64,000 bases of DNA from Corynebacterium sp. ACRPS. GTDB lineage: Bacteria; Actinomycetota; Actinomycetes; Mycobacteriales; Mycobacteriaceae. The stretch lies in contig NZ_JAKRMY010000007.1 of assembly GCF_022346005.1 (NCBI RefSeq), positions 1-64,000 of the forward strand, read 5' to 3'. The notes below the pieces were generated by a model. It was not told where the DNA came from and ran no database searches. It worked only from the letters and a program-made list of their open reading frames with translations. Position 1 is the stretch's first letter, and every line of letters starts with the position of its first letter. The position numbers and the translations under genes are program-made. Of the stretch, positions 46,618 through 54,132 are shown one piece after another.

Positions 46618-47793
46618 TTAGCGCAGCCCCAACTTAGAGGTACATGCAGGCCATGCGCCCCAGCCCTGGGAAGCCTGTACCTTCTGTGCCACGGCGATCT
46701 GCTGCTCGCGGGTGGCCTGCCATGCCTCGGGCGCGTATTCGGTGCCCCCAAAGCCAGCCCACGTGGAAGGCGTGAATTGCAGGCCGCCGGAGAAACCATT
46801 TCCGGTATTGATGGACCAGTTACCGGTGGACTCGCACTGCGCGATGGAATCCCATACGGAGCCATCGGCCACGGCGGGGGCTGACGCACCCGAGTTACCG
46901 CCTTGCGGCTCCGGCTCCGCCTGCTTGGTGCCGCGGGCGATGGTCGCAGGCTTTGGCCCTACAACGACCTCGTCCTTGATGACCTCTTCGGATTCCTTCT
47001 TGCCATTATTCAGGGTTACCTTGCGGGTGATCTCGCGCTTGCCCTTTTCGCCCTGTTCGCGCACCTCTTCGGCGCCGGCTTCCAGTTCGGGGTCATCCAC
47101 GAAATGCGGCTCGGCGTCGAATTCCTCAGTGACATCCTCGGTCTGAATGTCGATGCGTTCTACCTTGATAGACATGCCCTCGGTGACCTTTTCTTCCTTG
47201 GCTGGGAAGACGCGGTCATCCTCATCGAGCTTAATACCGCGCTCCTTGAGGACATCGCCCACGGTCTTGGCGGCAATCTTGGTGTAGGTATTCTTGCCAC
47301 CATCGTTGATCTTGATGATCTTGGGGGAAACGACCTCTAGATCCATGCCGTCTTTGAGCTGCGCATCTTTATCCACGTCATCCTCGCCAGACTTCACGGC
47401 GGCTCCCGGGTTTACTCCCTGCAGGTTATTGAGCAAATCAGACACGGTGAGATCGGTGGTAGAAAGCTGCTGCTGTTCACCATCGATGGACACGGCGACC
47501 GGCTTGGCGGTGCGCACGGAGATTTCATCACCATCGGCCACGGACTCAGATGGTGCGGGCGAGACGATATCTTCTTCGCCCACCTGGACGCCGGCGGCCT
47601 GCAGGGCGCCGTCCACGTCCTCGGCAAAGGTGGCCAGCTCTACCTTGTCGCCGTTGACTTCTACGACCAAGTCTTTCTGCGCGGCAATCGCCACGACACC
47701 GCCGACGGCGAGGGTGCTCAAGACGCCACCCGTTGCCAGGCGCAGGGGCAGGGAACGTGAATTATTGATGCGCTTAATGTGGTGAGGTGCCAT
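46618..47793 (-). CDS. rpfB: Resuscitation-promoting factor (RpfB/Rpf2 type)
   Basis: The exported muralytic enzyme of 391 residues has one N-terminal helix ([20 protein letters not shown]), three DUF348 repeats (about 40-75, 95-130, 150-190), a G5-type domain (about 200-285, [18 protein letters not shown]) and the C-terminal Rpf transglycosylase: [20 protein letters not shown] with the catalytic Glu, then [16 protein letters not shown] and [12 protein letters not shown]. It cleaves peptidoglycan during regrowth and division. An MtrA-like direct repeat lies about 145 bases upstream. The position between tatD and rsmA is standard. Confidence 0.94.
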
Positions 47794-47840
47794 GTGTAGT
47801 TAATCTCCGGTGGTGCTGTCTATCCAGTATCACAATTGTT

Positions 47841-47952
47841 GCCGCTGGCTAAGGAAAACCAGCGGCGATGCCGCGCTGCTCCACTGTGAACCGGCGCGGC
47901 GGGAAGGTAGAGGCGTAAAGCCTCAACGAACAATCAATAACAATACGATAAC
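47841..47952 (-). promoter_or_regulatory. rpfB upstream region: MtrA-like direct repeat and leader hairpins
   Basis: AATAAC (47936-47941) and GATAAC (47947-47952) repeat with an 11 bp period, the layout of an OmpR-type regulator box. Nearer the gene are hairpins GAGGC/GCCTC (47910-47924) and GCCGCTGG/CCAGCGGC (47841-47866). The same GATAAC repeat occurs upstream of the BCCT gene. Confidence 0.5.
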
Positions 47953-48062
47953 GAGTAGGGAAAGTCGAGAAGCGGTGCGCCACAGTTATAACGGGCGAAA
48001 ACAGTTGTCACATCCAGCACCCATACCACCAGCGACCAGCGGATTTAATTTTGTGACAATCC

Positions 48063-48902
48063 TCACTGTCCTGTCATGCTAATTCCATACACACGGTCAA
48101 AAGTCTCATTGACCTCCGCCGCCAATGCCTGAGTGGTTTGGTGGCGGGCCCGTGCAATGCAGTCATAGGTGTGCCCGATGAGGGACGGCTCATTGCGCTG
48201 CCCGCGGAACGGCTCTGGAGTCATAAACGGCGCATCGGTTTCCACCAGCAATTGCCCCGCCGGGGCCAGCGCGGCCGCCTGGCGTAGTTCCGCATTCCGC
48301 TTGAAGGTGACGTTGCCAGCAAAGGACAAAACGTAGCCGCGCTCTAATGCTTCTTCCGCCACCCGCAACGGTGAGGAGAAGCAGTGGAGCATGACGGTCT
48401 CAGGCGTGGGGGCATCGGCAAGAATGCGCAGCAAGTCTTGATCCGCCTCGCGGTTATGGATCATGAGCGTCTTGCCGGTGCGCACCGCCAGATCGATATG
48501 CCAGCGTAGGGATTCTTCCTGCTGGACCAAGCTCGCGGTGGTCTCCGGTTCGTGGTGGACCCAATAGGCGTCCATGCCGGTCTCCCCCACCGCCACGCAC
48601 CGCGGATCCGCCACCATCTCCTCCAACGCGGCTTTGGTGGGCGCGTCTAGTTCATTCGCCCGCACCGGGTGGATGGCGCAGGCGGCATACACGTTGGGAA
48701 AAGCATGCGCGGTCGCAAGGGCCGCCTCGGACTCGCGGCGGTCATCGCCAACCGTCACCAGGCGGGATACCCCAGCAGCGCGGGCGCGGTTGACCAGCAC
48801 CTCATCGGTATCTTTATGCGAGAAAAGGTGGGTATGTGCATCGCTGAGGCCGCTGAGCCCTGGGGCCGGAATGGGAGTAGGACGTGGCTTCTTTTTAGAC
48901 AT
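48063..48902 (-). CDS. tatD: TatD-family metal-dependent hydrolase
   Basis: The 279-residue TIM-barrel has the TatD metal ligands: SDAHTHLF, AVGETGMD, MIHNREAD, LHCFSS and VETDAPFMTPEP. Members are DNases with 3'-5' exonuclease activity, some also D-aminoacyl-tRNA deacylases. I chose ATG 48902 (MSKKKPRPTPIPAPG) because TACAAT ends 7 bases upstream; the longer frame runs into the divergent gene. It precedes rpfB at a distance of about 270 bases. Confidence 0.9.
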   Translation of the reverse strand: MSKKKPRPTPIPAPGLSGLSDAHTHLFSHKDTDEVLVNRARAAGVSRLVTVGDDRRESEAALATAHAFPNVYAACAIHPVRANELDAPTKAALEEMVADPRCVAVGETGMDAYWVHHEPETTASLVQQEESLRWHIDLAVRTGKTLMIHNREADQDLLRILADAPTPETVMLHCFSSPLRVAEEALERGYVLSFAGNVTFKRNAELRQAAALAPAGQLLVETDAPFMTPEPFRGQRNEPSLIGHTYDCIARARHQTTQALAAEVNETFDRVYGISMTGQ

Positions 48903-48909
48903 ACCCGCA

Positions 48910-48919
48910 ATTGTAATAT
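48910..48919. promoter_or_regulatory. Overlapping divergent -10 boxes of tatD and a GNAT gene
   Basis: TACAAT for tatD (minus, 48915-48910) and TAATAT for the GNAT gene (plus, 48914-48919) share two base pairs. The two start codons are only 25 bases apart, so each -35 region falls inside the other gene. Confidence 0.5.
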
Positions 48920-48927
48920 TGGCAGCT

Positions 48928-49422
48928 ATGTTGATCAGACCAGCGGACCTGAGCGATGTCCCCGCCATGACCGATACCCTCAACTGGGCCATCGAGCACA
49001 CCGATGTCATCTTTAACTCCACCCCAGTCACCGTGGCTGAACGCGAAGAACACCTGCGCCACATCCAGGAACTGGACTGTCCCTTCCTCGTTGCCGAAAC
49101 CGACGAGGGCGAATACTTGGGCTGGGCGCTCTATCACCCCTACCACGATCCCCGCATCTGGCAGGGCTGCTATGAAACCACGATTTACCTTTCCCCCAAT
49201 GCCCAGGGCCAAGGCGTGGGCACCGCCCTTATGCGCGAGCTGGTAGACCGCGCCCGGGCGGATGACAAGGTACATTCGCTGCTCGCCCTAATCGTGTCCA
49301 CTAATACGGCATCATTAAAGTTGCATGAAAAGTTCGGGTTTGAAAACGTGGGAACTCTCAAAGAGGTAACCTACAAATTCGATCACTGGCTTAGCCTCAC
49401 TCACTTAGAACTTCTGGTGTAA
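48928..49422 (+). CDS. GNAT-family N-acetyltransferase
   Basis: The 164-residue protein starts MLIRPADLSDVPAMTDTLNWAIEHTD, a phosphinothricin/methionine sulfone acetyltransferase-like opening. The acetyl-CoA loop is LSPNAQGQGVGTALM and motif B reads ASLKLHEKFGFENVG. I chose ATG 48928; TAATAT ends 8 bases upstream. A paralogue follows 10 bases later, so they form a tandem pair. Confidence 0.85.
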   Translation: MLIRPADLSDVPAMTDTLNWAIEHTDVIFNSTPVTVAEREEHLRHIQELDCPFLVAETDEGEYLGWALYHPYHDPRIWQGCYETTIYLSPNAQGQGVGTALMRELVDRARADDKVHSLLALIVSTNTASLKLHEKFGFENVGTLKEVTYKFDHWLSLTHLELLV

Positions 49423-49432
49423 AGGACTTTTA

Positions 49433-49933
49433 ATGCATATTCGCCCCGCTGAGCTTGCCGATGCCCTTTCCATTTCCGCCATCTACAACGCCGCCTCCGC
49501 CGCTAAACCGGCCAATAACCTCATTACCTGGCAAGAAGAGGTTGCAGACCGCGAGGATTGGCTGAAGGACATGTCCAAGGCGGGCTCGCCTGTGCTTGTC
49601 GCCGTAGACGATGATGAAATCATCGGCTGGGCCGCCTACTTTCAATTCGTCACGCCCGCCATCTACTACGGCACCGTCGAAGATTCCGTGTACATCTCCC
49701 CCTCAGCCCAGGGCAAGGGCGTGGGCTCTGAGCTTCTCGATGCCCTCATGGACATCGCCGCCGACGATCCCTATATCGAGACCATGATTACCTACATCGT
49801 CGATACCAATGCCGGTTCCATCGCGCTGCACAAGAAGTTTGGGTTTAAAGAAACCGGCCGCATGCCCAATATCCACACCAAGCACGGCGTACGCCTAGGC
49901 CTGGTTCACCTGCAGCGCGATTTCCAGCACTAG
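49433..49933 (+). CDS. GNAT-family N-acetyltransferase (tandem paralogue)
   Basis: The 166-residue protein resembles its upstream neighbour along its length: MHIRPAELADALSISAIYNAA, WAAYFQFV, acetyl-CoA loop ISPSAQGKGVGSELLDAL and SIALHKKFGFKETGRM. It is likely a product of duplication. The family acetylates small amines or amino-acid analogues; substrates are unknown. A strong terminator follows. Confidence 0.85.
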   Translation: MHIRPAELADALSISAIYNAASAAKPANNLITWQEEVADREDWLKDMSKAGSPVLVAVDDDEIIGWAAYFQFVTPAIYYGTVEDSVYISPSAQGKGVGSELLDALMDIAADDPYIETMITYIVDTNAGSIALHKKFGFKETGRMPNIHTKHGVRLGLVHLQRDFQH

Positions 49934-49957
49934 GCAGAACTTTTAGGCATAGCAAAA

Positions 49958-49999
49958 GCGCGGTGGCCTCCCCTTTTTCATAGGGATTGGCCACCGCGC
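49958..49999. terminator. Bidirectional terminator between GNAT pair and metG
   Basis: GCGCGGTGGCC (49958-49968) and GGCCACCGCGC (49989-49999) form an 11 bp perfect stem around a loop containing CCCTTTTTC, between two convergent genes. Confidence 0.75.
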
Positions 50000-50026
50000 C
50001 TTCGTATCTACGCTGGGGTTACCGAG

Positions 50027-51859
50027 CTAGTTCATCACCGGCGCCCATTCCGGGCCGGTCTCGCCGAGCTCTGGATCCAGCTTGGAAATAAGCGGCTTCG
50101 GCTTTGCCAAGGTCGTACCCGGTGCCACCTGGATGCGCTCCCACTTGGCCTGCTGCTGGGTGTAGTCACCCATAATCACCGGATATTCGTGGTTTTCTGG
50201 CGGAAGGCCCGCACCCACGAGCTCAACCGGGATATCGTCCTTAACCTCGCGCACCTCAGGCTGCGCGGCCCATTCGCCGGTGCGGCCCAAGGTCTCGTGC
50301 ACCTTCTGCGCGGTAAACGGCAGGAACGGGGTGAGCATGACGTTGCAGTCAGACACGACTTGCAGGGCGGTCCACAAAACGGTGGCCAGGCGCTCGCGCT
50401 GGGTTTCATCCTTGGCCAGCTTCCACGGCTCTTGGGAGGCAATATATGCATTCGCCTCGCCCACCACGTGCATGATGGAGACGATGGCCTGTTTGAACTT
50501 GGATTGCTCCAGCAGGTTACCGGCGGTGGTAAAGGTCTCCTCCGCCAGCTGCAAGATGGCCTCGTCGCGCTCCTCCAGGGCCGCCGGAACCGGAACCTCG
50601 CCGAAGTTCTTGTGCGCCATGGACACGGTGCGGTTGACCAGGTTGCCCCAGCCATTGGCCAGCTCATTATTGACGCGGCGCACGAATTCATCCCACGTAA
50701 AGTCCGCGTCGTTGTTTTCCGGGCCAGCCACGGCGATGAAGTAACGCAGCGGATCCGGGCCAAACTCCGCCAGGAAGTCCTTAACGTAGATCACCACGCC
50801 CTTGGACGAGGAGAACTTGGAGCCGGACATCGTCAAGTATTCCGAGGACACGATTTCCGTGGGCAGGTCCAGCTCGCCGTACTGGTGCAGCTCGCCGCCC
50901 TTCGAGCCCTTGCCCGCATAGCCCAACAATTCCGCCGGCCAGATCTGCGAGTGGAAGGTGATATTGTCCTTGCCCTGGAAGTAGTAGTGGCGGGTTTCTG
51001 GGTCCTGCCAGAATTCCTTCCACGCCTCCGGCTGGCCGGTGCGGTGCGCCCACTCGATGGAGGCGGACAAGTAGCCCACGACGGCATCGAACCACACGTA
51101 CAGCTTCTTCGCGTTATTGTCCTGCCAGCCATCCACCGGAATGGGAATGCCCCAGTCGATATCGCGGGTCATGGTGCGCGGGCGCATATCCTCCAGCAGG
51201 TTGAGGGAGAACTTCAGCACGTTCGGGCGCCAATCTTCGCGGGTAGAAAGCCACTTTTGCAGCTCGTCCTTAAGCGATGGCAGATCCAGCAGGAAGTGCT
51301 CAGTCTCTACGAACTGCGGGGTTTCGCCGTTGATCTTGGATACCGGGTCAATGAGGTCTACCGGATCCAGCTGGTTGCCGCAGTTATCGCACTGGTCACC
51401 GCGGGCGCCATCCGCGCCGCAGATGGGGCACGTGCCCTCGATATAGCGGTCCGGCAGCGTGCGGCCGGTGGATGGAGAAATTGCCCCCTTGGTGGTCTCT
51501 TTCAGCATGTAGCCGTTCTCATTGAGCCCCTTGAACAGCTCCTGCACCACCGAGTAGTGGTTGCGGGTGGTGGTGCGGGTAAAAAGGTCGTACGACAAGC
51601 CGAGGTTGGCCAGATCGTTGACAATCTGGCGGTTATAGCGGTCCGCGAGTTCGCGGACGGATACGCCTTCCTTATCGGCCTGGACCAGCAACGGGGTGCC
51701 GTGCTCATCCGTGCCGGAGACCATGAGTACGTTGCGGCCACGCATTCGCTGGAACCGGGCGAATACGTCAGAGGGAACGCCAAAACCAGCCACGTGACCG
51801 ATGTGGCGCGGGCCATTGGCGTATGGCCAGGCAACATTTACTACTAAAGACTCAGTCAT
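50027..51859 (-). CDS. metG: Methionyl-tRNA synthetase
   Basis: The 610-residue class I synthetase has the HIGH motif as [10 protein letters not shown], the zinc knuckle [18 protein letters not shown] and the KMSKS equivalent GSKFSSSKG. No C-terminal EMAP-like domain is present, so this is the short form. I chose ATG 51859 ([16 protein letters not shown]) because TAAACT ends 7 bases upstream. The usual actinobacterial neighbourhood (metG, tatD, rpfB) is kept, but with two GNAT genes inserted. Confidence 0.95.
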
Positions 51860-51925
51860 GGAGTCCAGTTTATCGAAGCACCTGCACGAACACACGTTGA
51901 GGGCACATTACCTCTACCACCGAAA

Positions 51926-51967
51926 AGCGCCCGCCTCCCTCCCAAGTATGGGAAAGCGGCGGGCGCT
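51926..51967 (-). terminator. Terminator after the BCCT gene
   Basis: AGCGCCCGCC (51926-51935) and GGCGGGCGCT (51958-51967) form a perfect 10 bp stem. On the minus strand TTTTCGG follows. Confidence 0.75.
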
Positions 51968-51993
51968 GCTACCGAAGGCGGTAGATGGTCTAT

Positions 51994-53850
51994 CTACTTG
52001 CGCTTCATCGGGTTCTTCAAACGCTCGTTGCGGCGCTTCTTGAGCACCTGCGTGCGCTGGTAGTCGCGGTGCAAGCGGCGCTCGCGGGCCATCTTGCGCT
52101 GGAACTGCTGCGCCTCGCGGTACTCGAGGTAAATGATGTCCTGGCTCAAGTCCTTGTAAATGGCGAACATCAGGCCAATGACGATGAACAAGAACGGCAG
52201 CGCCGCCACGATGGTGACATTCTGCAGGTTGGACAGTGCGTCCTCATTGACCAAGAGCAGGGTCAAACCAACGGCTGCGGTCAGGGCACCCCACAGGGCG
52301 GATAGCCACGGCTTCGCGGTTGCGGCACCATTCTGGGTCATCGAACCCATCACCGTGGAAGCGGAGTCTGCGGAGGTAATGAAGAAGGTGGACAGCAAGA
52401 TGACGGCGACGACGCCGGCAATGAAGCCACCGGGCAGGTTGTGCAGGAGGTTAAACAGCTCTACTTCGGCGGATTCGCCGGTGATGGATTCGCCGTTTTG
52501 CTCCATGTGGATTGCGGTGCCACCGAAGATGGCGAACCACAGGGTGGAAACGCCCGCTGGGATGAGCAGGACGCCCAAGCAGAACTCGCGGACGGAACGG
52601 CCGCGGGAAATGCGTGCCAAGAACATGCCCACGAATGGGGACCAGGAGACCCACCATGCCCAGTAGAAGATGGTGTAGCTAGACAGCCACTCGCCGGCGG
52701 TGCCGTTTTCGGACTCGGCGGTACGGCCGATCATCTCGGTGAAGTAGTTGAAGTAATTACCGATGGATCCTGGAATCTGGTTCAGGATGGTCACGGTTGG
52801 GCCCAAGATGAAGACGAAGATAGCCAGCACCGCAGCCAAGACCATGTTGGCATTGGACACGTACTGAATGCCCTTGCCCACACCGGAGAGCGCGGACAGC
52901 AAGAAGGCCAAGGTCAGGACCAACACAATACCGATAACCACAGACTGGGTTGGGTTATCGATGATGCCGGAGGCTTCCAGGCCGGCCTGAATCTGCAGCG
53001 CGCCAAGCCCCAGGGAGCAGGCGGTGCCGAAGACAGTGGCGAAGATGGACAGGATGTCAATGAACTTGCCCAATCCGCCGTTGGCGCGGCGCTCGCCGAT
53101 GAGCGGCACGAAGGCCTGGCTCAACAGCTGCTTGCGACCGATGCGGTAGGTCGAGTACGCGATGGCCAAACCAACAATGGCGTAGACAGCCCAGGGGTGC
53201 AGCGTCCAGTGGAACATGGCATAGGCCATGGACGAGCCCACGTTTTCCGTTCCTTGGCCAGGCGTACCGTCGCGGTAGTTCGCCAGCGGCTCGGAAGCAC
53301 CGTAGAACATCAGGCCGATGCCCATACCGGCAGCGAACATCATGGCGATCCACGAAGGCGTGGAAAACTCCGGTTCCTCATTGATGTGGCCCAACCTAAT
53401 GGAGCCGAACTTAGAGAACGCGATGAAGATAACGAAGGCCACGAAGACAGTGCCGAAGAGCACGTAGGCCCAACCGAACTTATCGACGACCCACGTCAGG
53501 GCCGCGGAAGAAAAGTCCGCGAAGTTATCCGGTGCGGCCAGGCCCCAGATAACGATGGCGGCAACGAGCACACCCGCAATCCCCATGATGGTCCAGTCAA
53601 TCGGGATATTATCGCGGTCTGCGGCGATTTCGATTTCCGGATCATCATACTCTTCGGGGTGGAACCCCTCAGAGTTGAGCATGTCCTGGATCTGGCTCGT
53701 CGCCGTTTGCTCGTCCAGTGCCTCTTCTACCGTTTGATAATCCTCAATCGGCTGTTCACTCGAAGCAGCAGAAGTGGTCCCAGCCGGCGCTTCGCCGGGC
53801 CCCTTCCCCTCTTCGGGCACACCAGCGCCGTTATTTTCAGTATTAGTCAT
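51994..53850 (-). CDS. BCCT-family osmolyte transporter
   Basis: The 618-residue carrier has twelve helices. The glycine stretch [17 protein letters not shown] (BetP-type sodium/betaine site region) and the Trp box [18 protein letters not shown] are clear, as is [20 protein letters not shown]. The N-terminus (about 65 residues) is strongly acidic and the C-terminus strongly basic (about 45 residues, [19 protein letters not shown]), as in the osmosensing BetP. Substrate among betaine, ectoine, proline or carnitine is undecided. I chose ATG 53850. A GATAAC direct repeat lies about 160 bases upstream. Confidence 0.9.
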
Positions 53851-54008
53851 GCTCTCTAGACTGGTGGCGCGACCCCAATTTTTCAAACCGTTTTGCTATC
53901 AAAACCCCAGCTTACATACATTTTTGAGCATTTCCTTAAGACTTCCTACATGCTTATAGGCTACATATCCCCACGTAGACAGGTTTTAGGCGCCACACGC
54001 CCGGGAAA

Positions 54009-54025
54009 GATAACGATTCGATAAC
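54009..54025 (-). promoter_or_regulatory. MtrA-like direct repeat upstream of the BCCT gene
   Basis: GATAAC at 54009-54014 and 54020-54025 repeats exactly with an 11 bp period. The rpfB upstream region carries the same motif. The rest of the 53851-54132 gap is AT-rich promoter-like DNA without a gene. Confidence 0.5.
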
Positions 54026-54132
54026 ATATATAGAAGCGTGAAACCACCAGTTAGCACGAGTAATTGTGACGTTTTATACGCTACATAGAAATGACCTGAG
54101 GACGGCTCAACAAGAGCTCAATTAGCGGGCGC

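Follow-up and report, generated by a model that had tools for sequence, protein, structure and literature searches.

The window analysed here, a stretch of 64,000 nucleotides (positions 1 to 64,000 of contig NZ_JAKRMY010000007.1, forward strand) from Corynebacterium sp. ACRPS, contains two direct repeats, one upstream of the cell-wall gene rpfB and one upstream of the osmolyte carrier gene betP. Both are supported as putative boxes of the corynebacterial regulator MtrA: they have the two repeats and 3-bp spacer of the MtrA box, they precede orthologues of known MtrA targets, MtrA is encoded in the genome, and they are kept at orthologous promoters (at betP in part). MtrA is thus very probably the protein that would bind both. 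MtrA regulation of rpf2 and betP is already known in Corynebacterium glutamicum, and what we describe is a conserved instance of that link. Our observations cover the two sequences, their conservation, their match to the consensus, an encoded MtrA and the place of a −10-like hexamer. The genes and repeats are as follows.

46618-47793, minus strand: rpfB (rpf2 orthologue), with three DUF348 stretches, one G5 and one transglycosylase-like (Rpf) domain in Pfam
51994-53850, minus strand: betP, a BCCT-family glycine betaine carrier, assigned from its best PDB sequence matches and its locus position
47936-47952, plus strand: repeat of rpfB, an exact [AG]ATAAC-N5-GATAAC, AATAACAATACGATAAC
54009-54025, plus strand: repeat of betP, an exact [AG]ATAAC-N5-GATAAC, GATAACGATTCGATAAC
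47937-47955, plus strand (opposite rpfB): putative MtrA box of rpfB, ATAACAAT-ACG-ATAACGAG (in full ATAACAATACGATAACGAG), 14/16 consensus positions
54010-54028, plus strand (opposite betP): putative MtrA box of betP, ATAACGAT-TCG-ATAACATA (in full ATAACGATTCGATAACATA), 13/16 consensus positions

Two MtrA-type boxes upstream of rpfB and betP

Both genes lie on the minus strand, and each box lies on the strand opposite its gene. A reading made from the sequence alone had placed such repeats about 145 bases before rpfB and about 160 bases before a BCCT carrier gene, in the same orientation relative to both. This is borne out: the 19-bp boxes end 143 bp (rpfB) and 159 bp (betP) upstream of the start codons, which were taken as ATG 47793 and ATG 53850 (close relatives also begin MTN or MTS there). 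The exact pattern [AG]ATAAC-N5-GATAAC occurs at these two sites only, in the 64-kb window and also in the whole genome (2,399,481 bases in 47 contigs). With up to two mismatches, the window has 6 matches against 3.1 expected, a number reached in 5 of 100 shuffles; loose matches in the window are near chance level. Across the genome, up to one mismatch gives 14 matches, compared with 7 for the reversed pattern.

The C. glutamicum MtrA consensus, (A/G)TAACAATttn(A/G)TAACAAT, consists of two 8-bp repeats with a 3-bp linker (PMC3353115), and scored against it both boxes keep all ten core bases (10/10). The named C. glutamicum targets include betP, proP, mepA, mepB, nlpC, csbD and rpf2 (PMC3353115), in agreement with the statement of the earlier reading that MtrA is reported to act on rpf2 and on osmolyte carriers, among them betP and proP. 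The boxes of this window therefore share with the C. glutamicum MtrAB regulon (Brocker et al. 2011, via PMC3353115) the 8-bp direct repeat, the 3-bp linker and the targets rpf2 and betP. They differ from it in species and, at rpfB, in a linker that is ACG rather than ttn, giving a −10-like TATTGT on the gene strand.

Compared with PDB sequences, the BCCT protein of the window has the glycine betaine transporter BetP as each of its eight best matches (799-827 bits), the next family scoring 330 bits, and betP is placed between rsmI and metG in most relatives. MtrA itself is encoded in the genome: the protein scores 372 bits against NF040689 (cut-off 300), and among PDB sequences it matches Mycobacterium tuberculosis MtrA (2gwr) best.

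The repeats might instead serve a different OmpR-family regulator encoded in this genome, for example a homologue of PhoR, RegX3 or MprA. Beyond MtrA itself, nine stretches of the genome match the MtrA model, three scoring 186 to 240 bits, and direct-repeat binding is frequent among OmpR-type regulators (PMC3353115). However, the published motifs of PhoR (a CCTGTGAA repeat) and CopR (a TGAAGATTT repeat), the two that were compared, differ from these boxes, whereas the MtrA motif fits them at 14 and 13 of 16 positions. In addition, rpf2 and betP are listed as targets of MtrA itself in C. glutamicum (PMC3353115). We consider use of the repeats by another OmpR-family regulator improbable.

Conservation across the genus Corynebacterium

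Orthologous loci were collected by a BetP-alignment scan of contigs, of which the best 79 loci of a longer list were retained. Fourteen were excluded (13 from other genera and L074, which is labelled Mycobacteriaceae and starts 7 bases before the gene), and the window was added to the remainder, giving 66 Corynebacterium betP loci. Of these, 58 had an rpfB match with sufficient upstream sequence and were usable for rpfB. A strong box was defined as one with at least 9 of 10 core and at least 12 of 16 total consensus positions within 300 bp upstream of the gene.

A strong box is present upstream of rpfB in 57/58 loci and upstream of betP in 38/66. The neighbouring genes, used as controls, have almost none: 0/55 for ksgA, 0/65 for metG, 0/65 for rsmI and 3/65 for pmt (together 3/250). 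In the three pmt loci concerned (L121, L122 and L130), pmt and betP have a common intergenic region, and the pmt-side boxes are therefore probably the betP boxes themselves. Among dinucleotide shuffles of the upstream regions, 0/580 (rpfB) and 5/660 (betP) reached the strong-box criterion. The best box of either strand lies opposite the gene in 56/57 cases for rpfB and 36/38 for betP, and scanning the opposite strand alone again gives 57/58 and 38/66.

As the Fisher tests of conservation treat related species as independent, counts thinned to below 75% protein identity are fairer: a strong opposite-strand box is found in 32/33 rpfB and 13/26 betP representatives. At rpfB all ten core bases are kept in 48/58 loci. 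The rpfB-type motif RTAACRNTACGRTAAC was found in 117/242 genomes of the genus, once in nearly all of these, and its reversed form in 2; of the first 30 sites, 27 are adjacent to an rpfB and 3 are elsewhere. The pair of boxes had been described for this strain. The arrangement is not peculiar to it but recurs across the genus, though in full at rpfB only. A database prediction likewise names rpfB as a potential target of mtrA, together with glxR, in C. jeikeium and C. efficiens (PMC8247434).

The gene order pmt, rsmI, betP, metG, rpfB, ksgA recurs in most named Corynebacterium loci and is rearranged in some (for example L110, L121, L122 and L130). By BetP, the nearest named relatives among the matches listed are an uncultured Corynebacterium metagenome-assembled genome and Corynebacterium sp. 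KPL1814 (98%), followed by C. macginleyi (94%). The genome probably belongs to this group, that of C. accolens and its relatives. In six genomes (G026, G034, G069, G098, G099 and G102) the best betP match has one in-frame stop. Loci with no strong betP box include L091-L095, L098, L100, L109, L113, L114, L117, L119, L127, L129 and L132, and a strong rpfB box is retained in all of these but L113. The end of rsmI lies near the extrapolated betP start in several of these loci, and betP may therefore share a promoter there.

Promoter geometry and probable signs of regulation

In C. glutamicum, an MtrA site near the −10 element goes with repression and a site upstream of the −35 element with activation (PMC3353115). 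The candidate promoter elements of rpfB in the window are given below.

47940-47945, minus strand: predicted −10 of the rpfB promoter, TATTGT, inside the box; TAnnnT at this offset in 57/57 rpfB boxes
47963-47968, minus strand: predicted −35-like TCGACT, 17 bp from the −10; TnGA in 38/57 and TnG in 50/57 rpfB loci

The gene-strand hexamer occupies a fixed place in the rpfB boxes and reads TATTGT in 30, TATCGT in 19, TACTGT in 5 and TAATGT in 3 of the 57 loci. The TAnnnT test is decided largely at two positions, namely the first linker base and its predecessor, as the remaining required base belongs to a core half-site. The first linker base of the rpfB box is A and not the consensus t; read on the gene strand, this base becomes the T with which the −10 begins. 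The corresponding offsets at betP carry TAnnnT in 1/38, TnGA in 1/38 and TnG in 3/38 loci.

Because a −10-like hexamer lies inside it, the rpfB box overlaps the predicted promoter, which is the geometry of a repressor under the published position rule. The geometry at betP may be that of an activator, as suggested by a box with no −10, a distance of 159 bp and conserved sequence downstream of the box, the last seen in ten close relatives. Since the hexamer is found inside the rpfB box in 57/57 loci but inside the betP box in only 1/38, MtrA probably has opposite effects at the two boxes. Taking the position rule together with the location of the −10, it is likely that MtrA represses rpfB and activates betP. 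These signs agree with published results in C. glutamicum, where rpf2 is reported to be under direct repression by MtrA (PMC9599347) and betP is among the transcripts that fall below 10% without mtrA (PMC8334368).

It could be that the rpfB repeat is conserved only as a core promoter and resembles an MtrA box incidentally. TAnnnT at −10 in all 57 boxes, TnG 17 bp upstream in 50 of them and a linker region that reads TACG in 53/57 loci all speak for this. Yet both RTAAC half-sites are kept at period 11, they reach beyond any −10 hexamer, and the ten core bases persist in 48/58 loci. Moreover, betP has the repeat without an internal −10, and rpf2 is a listed MtrA target (PMC3353115). We regard conservation as a core promoter alone as very unlikely.

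An operator that overlaps the predicted promoter is the reading that we prefer for rpfB, and it may extend further. We lean, by a modest margin, towards the view that the rpfB −10 and the MtrA operator form one composite element throughout the genus, with RTAACRATACGRTAAC as its commonest form on the operator strand, and that the off-consensus first linker base of this element creates the −10; the cell-wall arm at rpfB would be near-invariant, whereas the osmolyte arm at betP would be gained and lost between lineages. A literature search, which did not cover the primary MtrA target paper (PMC3067596), found no description of such a composite −10/operator element, and we do not claim that it is unpublished.

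Several observations weigh against MtrA control of both genes with the signs given above. No strong box precedes betP in 28/66 loci. A generic promoter scan with a threshold of 9/12 consensus bases does not list the proposed rpfB promoter, which has 8/12; it lists another candidate at 48077-48048, the number of matches being near expectation, and no sigma-70-like promoter near the betP box. By count, the motif is not enriched in the genome: RTAAC-N6-RTAAC (period 11) has 10 exact sites against 15 for the reversed pattern, and RTAACRN5RTAACR with one mismatch has 38 against 87. The linker variant N7 (period 12) has 11 matches (46 reversed), which count on the same side. Finally, of eight MtrA-dependent promoter fragments of C. 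glutamicum, four showed more than twofold induction by NaCl, and that of betP was not one of them (PMC8334368).

Proposed mechanism

We suggest that hyperosmotic or envelope stress would bring phosphorylated MtrA onto both direct repeats (8+3+8 bp), as a head-to-tail dimer on each. The dimer on the rpfB box would mask the −10 within it, so that RNA polymerase is shut out and the gene repressed. The dimer on the betP box would sit upstream of the promoter and activate the gene by recruiting polymerase. One regulator would in this way lower peptidoglycan cleavage and raise osmolyte uptake together. That phosphorylated MtrA lowers rpfB and raises betP through the two boxes seems to us a likely mechanism overall, in which binding, its dependence on phosphorylation and the sign of regulation in this species are inferred from sequence.

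The earlier reading saw in the two sites shared MtrA boxes that tie cell-wall hydrolysis to osmotic stress. The tie is supported by the consensus fit, the identity of BetP, the encoded MtrA and the further boxes beside NlpC/P60-type, PutP and M23 genes described below, but the two signs are probably opposite. The MtrA link between wall hydrolysis and osmotic stress, known from C. glutamicum, is extended by the analysis to another Corynebacterium group and to much of the genus. The analysis also offers a testable reason for opposite signs of regulation: the presence or absence of a −10 within the operator. In addition, the near-invariant rpfB element could serve as a guide to rpfB promoters in draft Corynebacterium genomes.

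The motif in the rest of the genome

The earlier reading had called for a genome-wide enrichment check. As reported above, this failed on raw count (10 against 15 reversed); the difference is in location, which was judged with a simple self-made open reading frame caller. Nine of the 10 N6 sites are intergenic, none lies in a protein gene and one (L055) lies in 16S rRNA; Rfam, run on 12 loci, found ribosomal RNA in L055 and nothing in the others. Outside protein genes are 4/11 of the N7 matches and, for the N5 variant (3 matches, 9 reversed), 2/3, one of these on the rRNA contig. A Fisher test of N6 against N7 location gives a p value of 0.005, or 0.004 with the rRNA site counted, on small numbers. 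A chance origin in AT-rich intergenic DNA would suit the raw genome counts, which are no higher than for the reversed pattern, and the loose window matches near expectation, but it is scarcely credible, mainly because the boxes are conserved at orthologous promoters against neighbour-gene and shuffle controls, with RTAACRNTACGRTAAC in 117/242 genomes against 2 for its reversed form; for rpfB, this conservation refutes it.

Elsewhere in the genome, one period-11 box lies 248 bp upstream of an NlpC/P60-type gene that resembles C. glutamicum nlpC, its NCBIfam matches being under the curated cut-offs; in C. glutamicum nlpC is described as repressed by MtrA (PMC9960051). Another is 135 bp from the start of a PutP symporter. 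On the same contig as the window (C45), 17 kb past it, an M23 peptidase gene has a box with 9/10 core and 14/16 total positions and one imperfect half-site, and this gene is possibly the mepA counterpart. A third half-site adjoins this box on its upstream side, giving three RTAAC-like half-sites in register at period 11 (L217 982-1011) just before the gene. Two other M23 loci were checked and no box was found there. Control by MtrA of all BCCT carriers was considered and rejected, as none of the four paralogues has more than 8/10 core bases in the interval scanned. That interval ran from 500 bp upstream to 60 bp downstream of the point where the protein match starts, a point inside the gene.

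Further boxes lie beside a GDSL lipase and AMP-binding gene pair, and beside a cluster that comprises a DUF4259 gene, a putative tmk (assigned by eye) and mtrA. The MtrA-type box at L146 1501-1517 is upstream of this cluster, which ends in mtrA, and beside a divergent gene with no Pfam match; the excerpt of the C. glutamicum review lists no MtrA autoregulation (PMC3353115). In L143, about 1 kb with no convincing gene (474-1500) separates a box from the gene of a secreted coiled-coil protein, which starts near 473 and has no match in NCBIfam; an Rv1476-like gene and a gene resembling aconitase by eye are nearby.

Leader and upstream region of rpfB

Two further features flank the rpfB box.

47794-47932, minus strand: predicted 5′ leader of rpfB, stably folded, its extent inferred from the predicted −10
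48052-48067, no strand assigned: GlxR-like palindrome TGTGACAATCCTCACT upstream of rpfB, with 9/10 half-site bases of the GlxR consensus

None of 200 shuffles folds as well as the predicted leader (z −4.2), which contains a terminator-like hairpin that has bases in common with a longer, 10-bp hairpin. The distance from the box to rpfB is shorter in many other Corynebacterium species. An MtrA orthologue and an rpfB gene are common to M. tuberculosis and the present genome, and in the former MtrA is said to control rpfB, in work by Sharma et al. in 2015. A terminator-type RNA switch is described in the M. tuberculosis rpfB leader (PMC6009663); no Rfam family was matched in the window. GlxR-like sites with no more than one mismatch occur in 31/58 loci. 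Because 25 of these sites start 111-112 bp before the MtrA box, the spacing between the two looks constrained.

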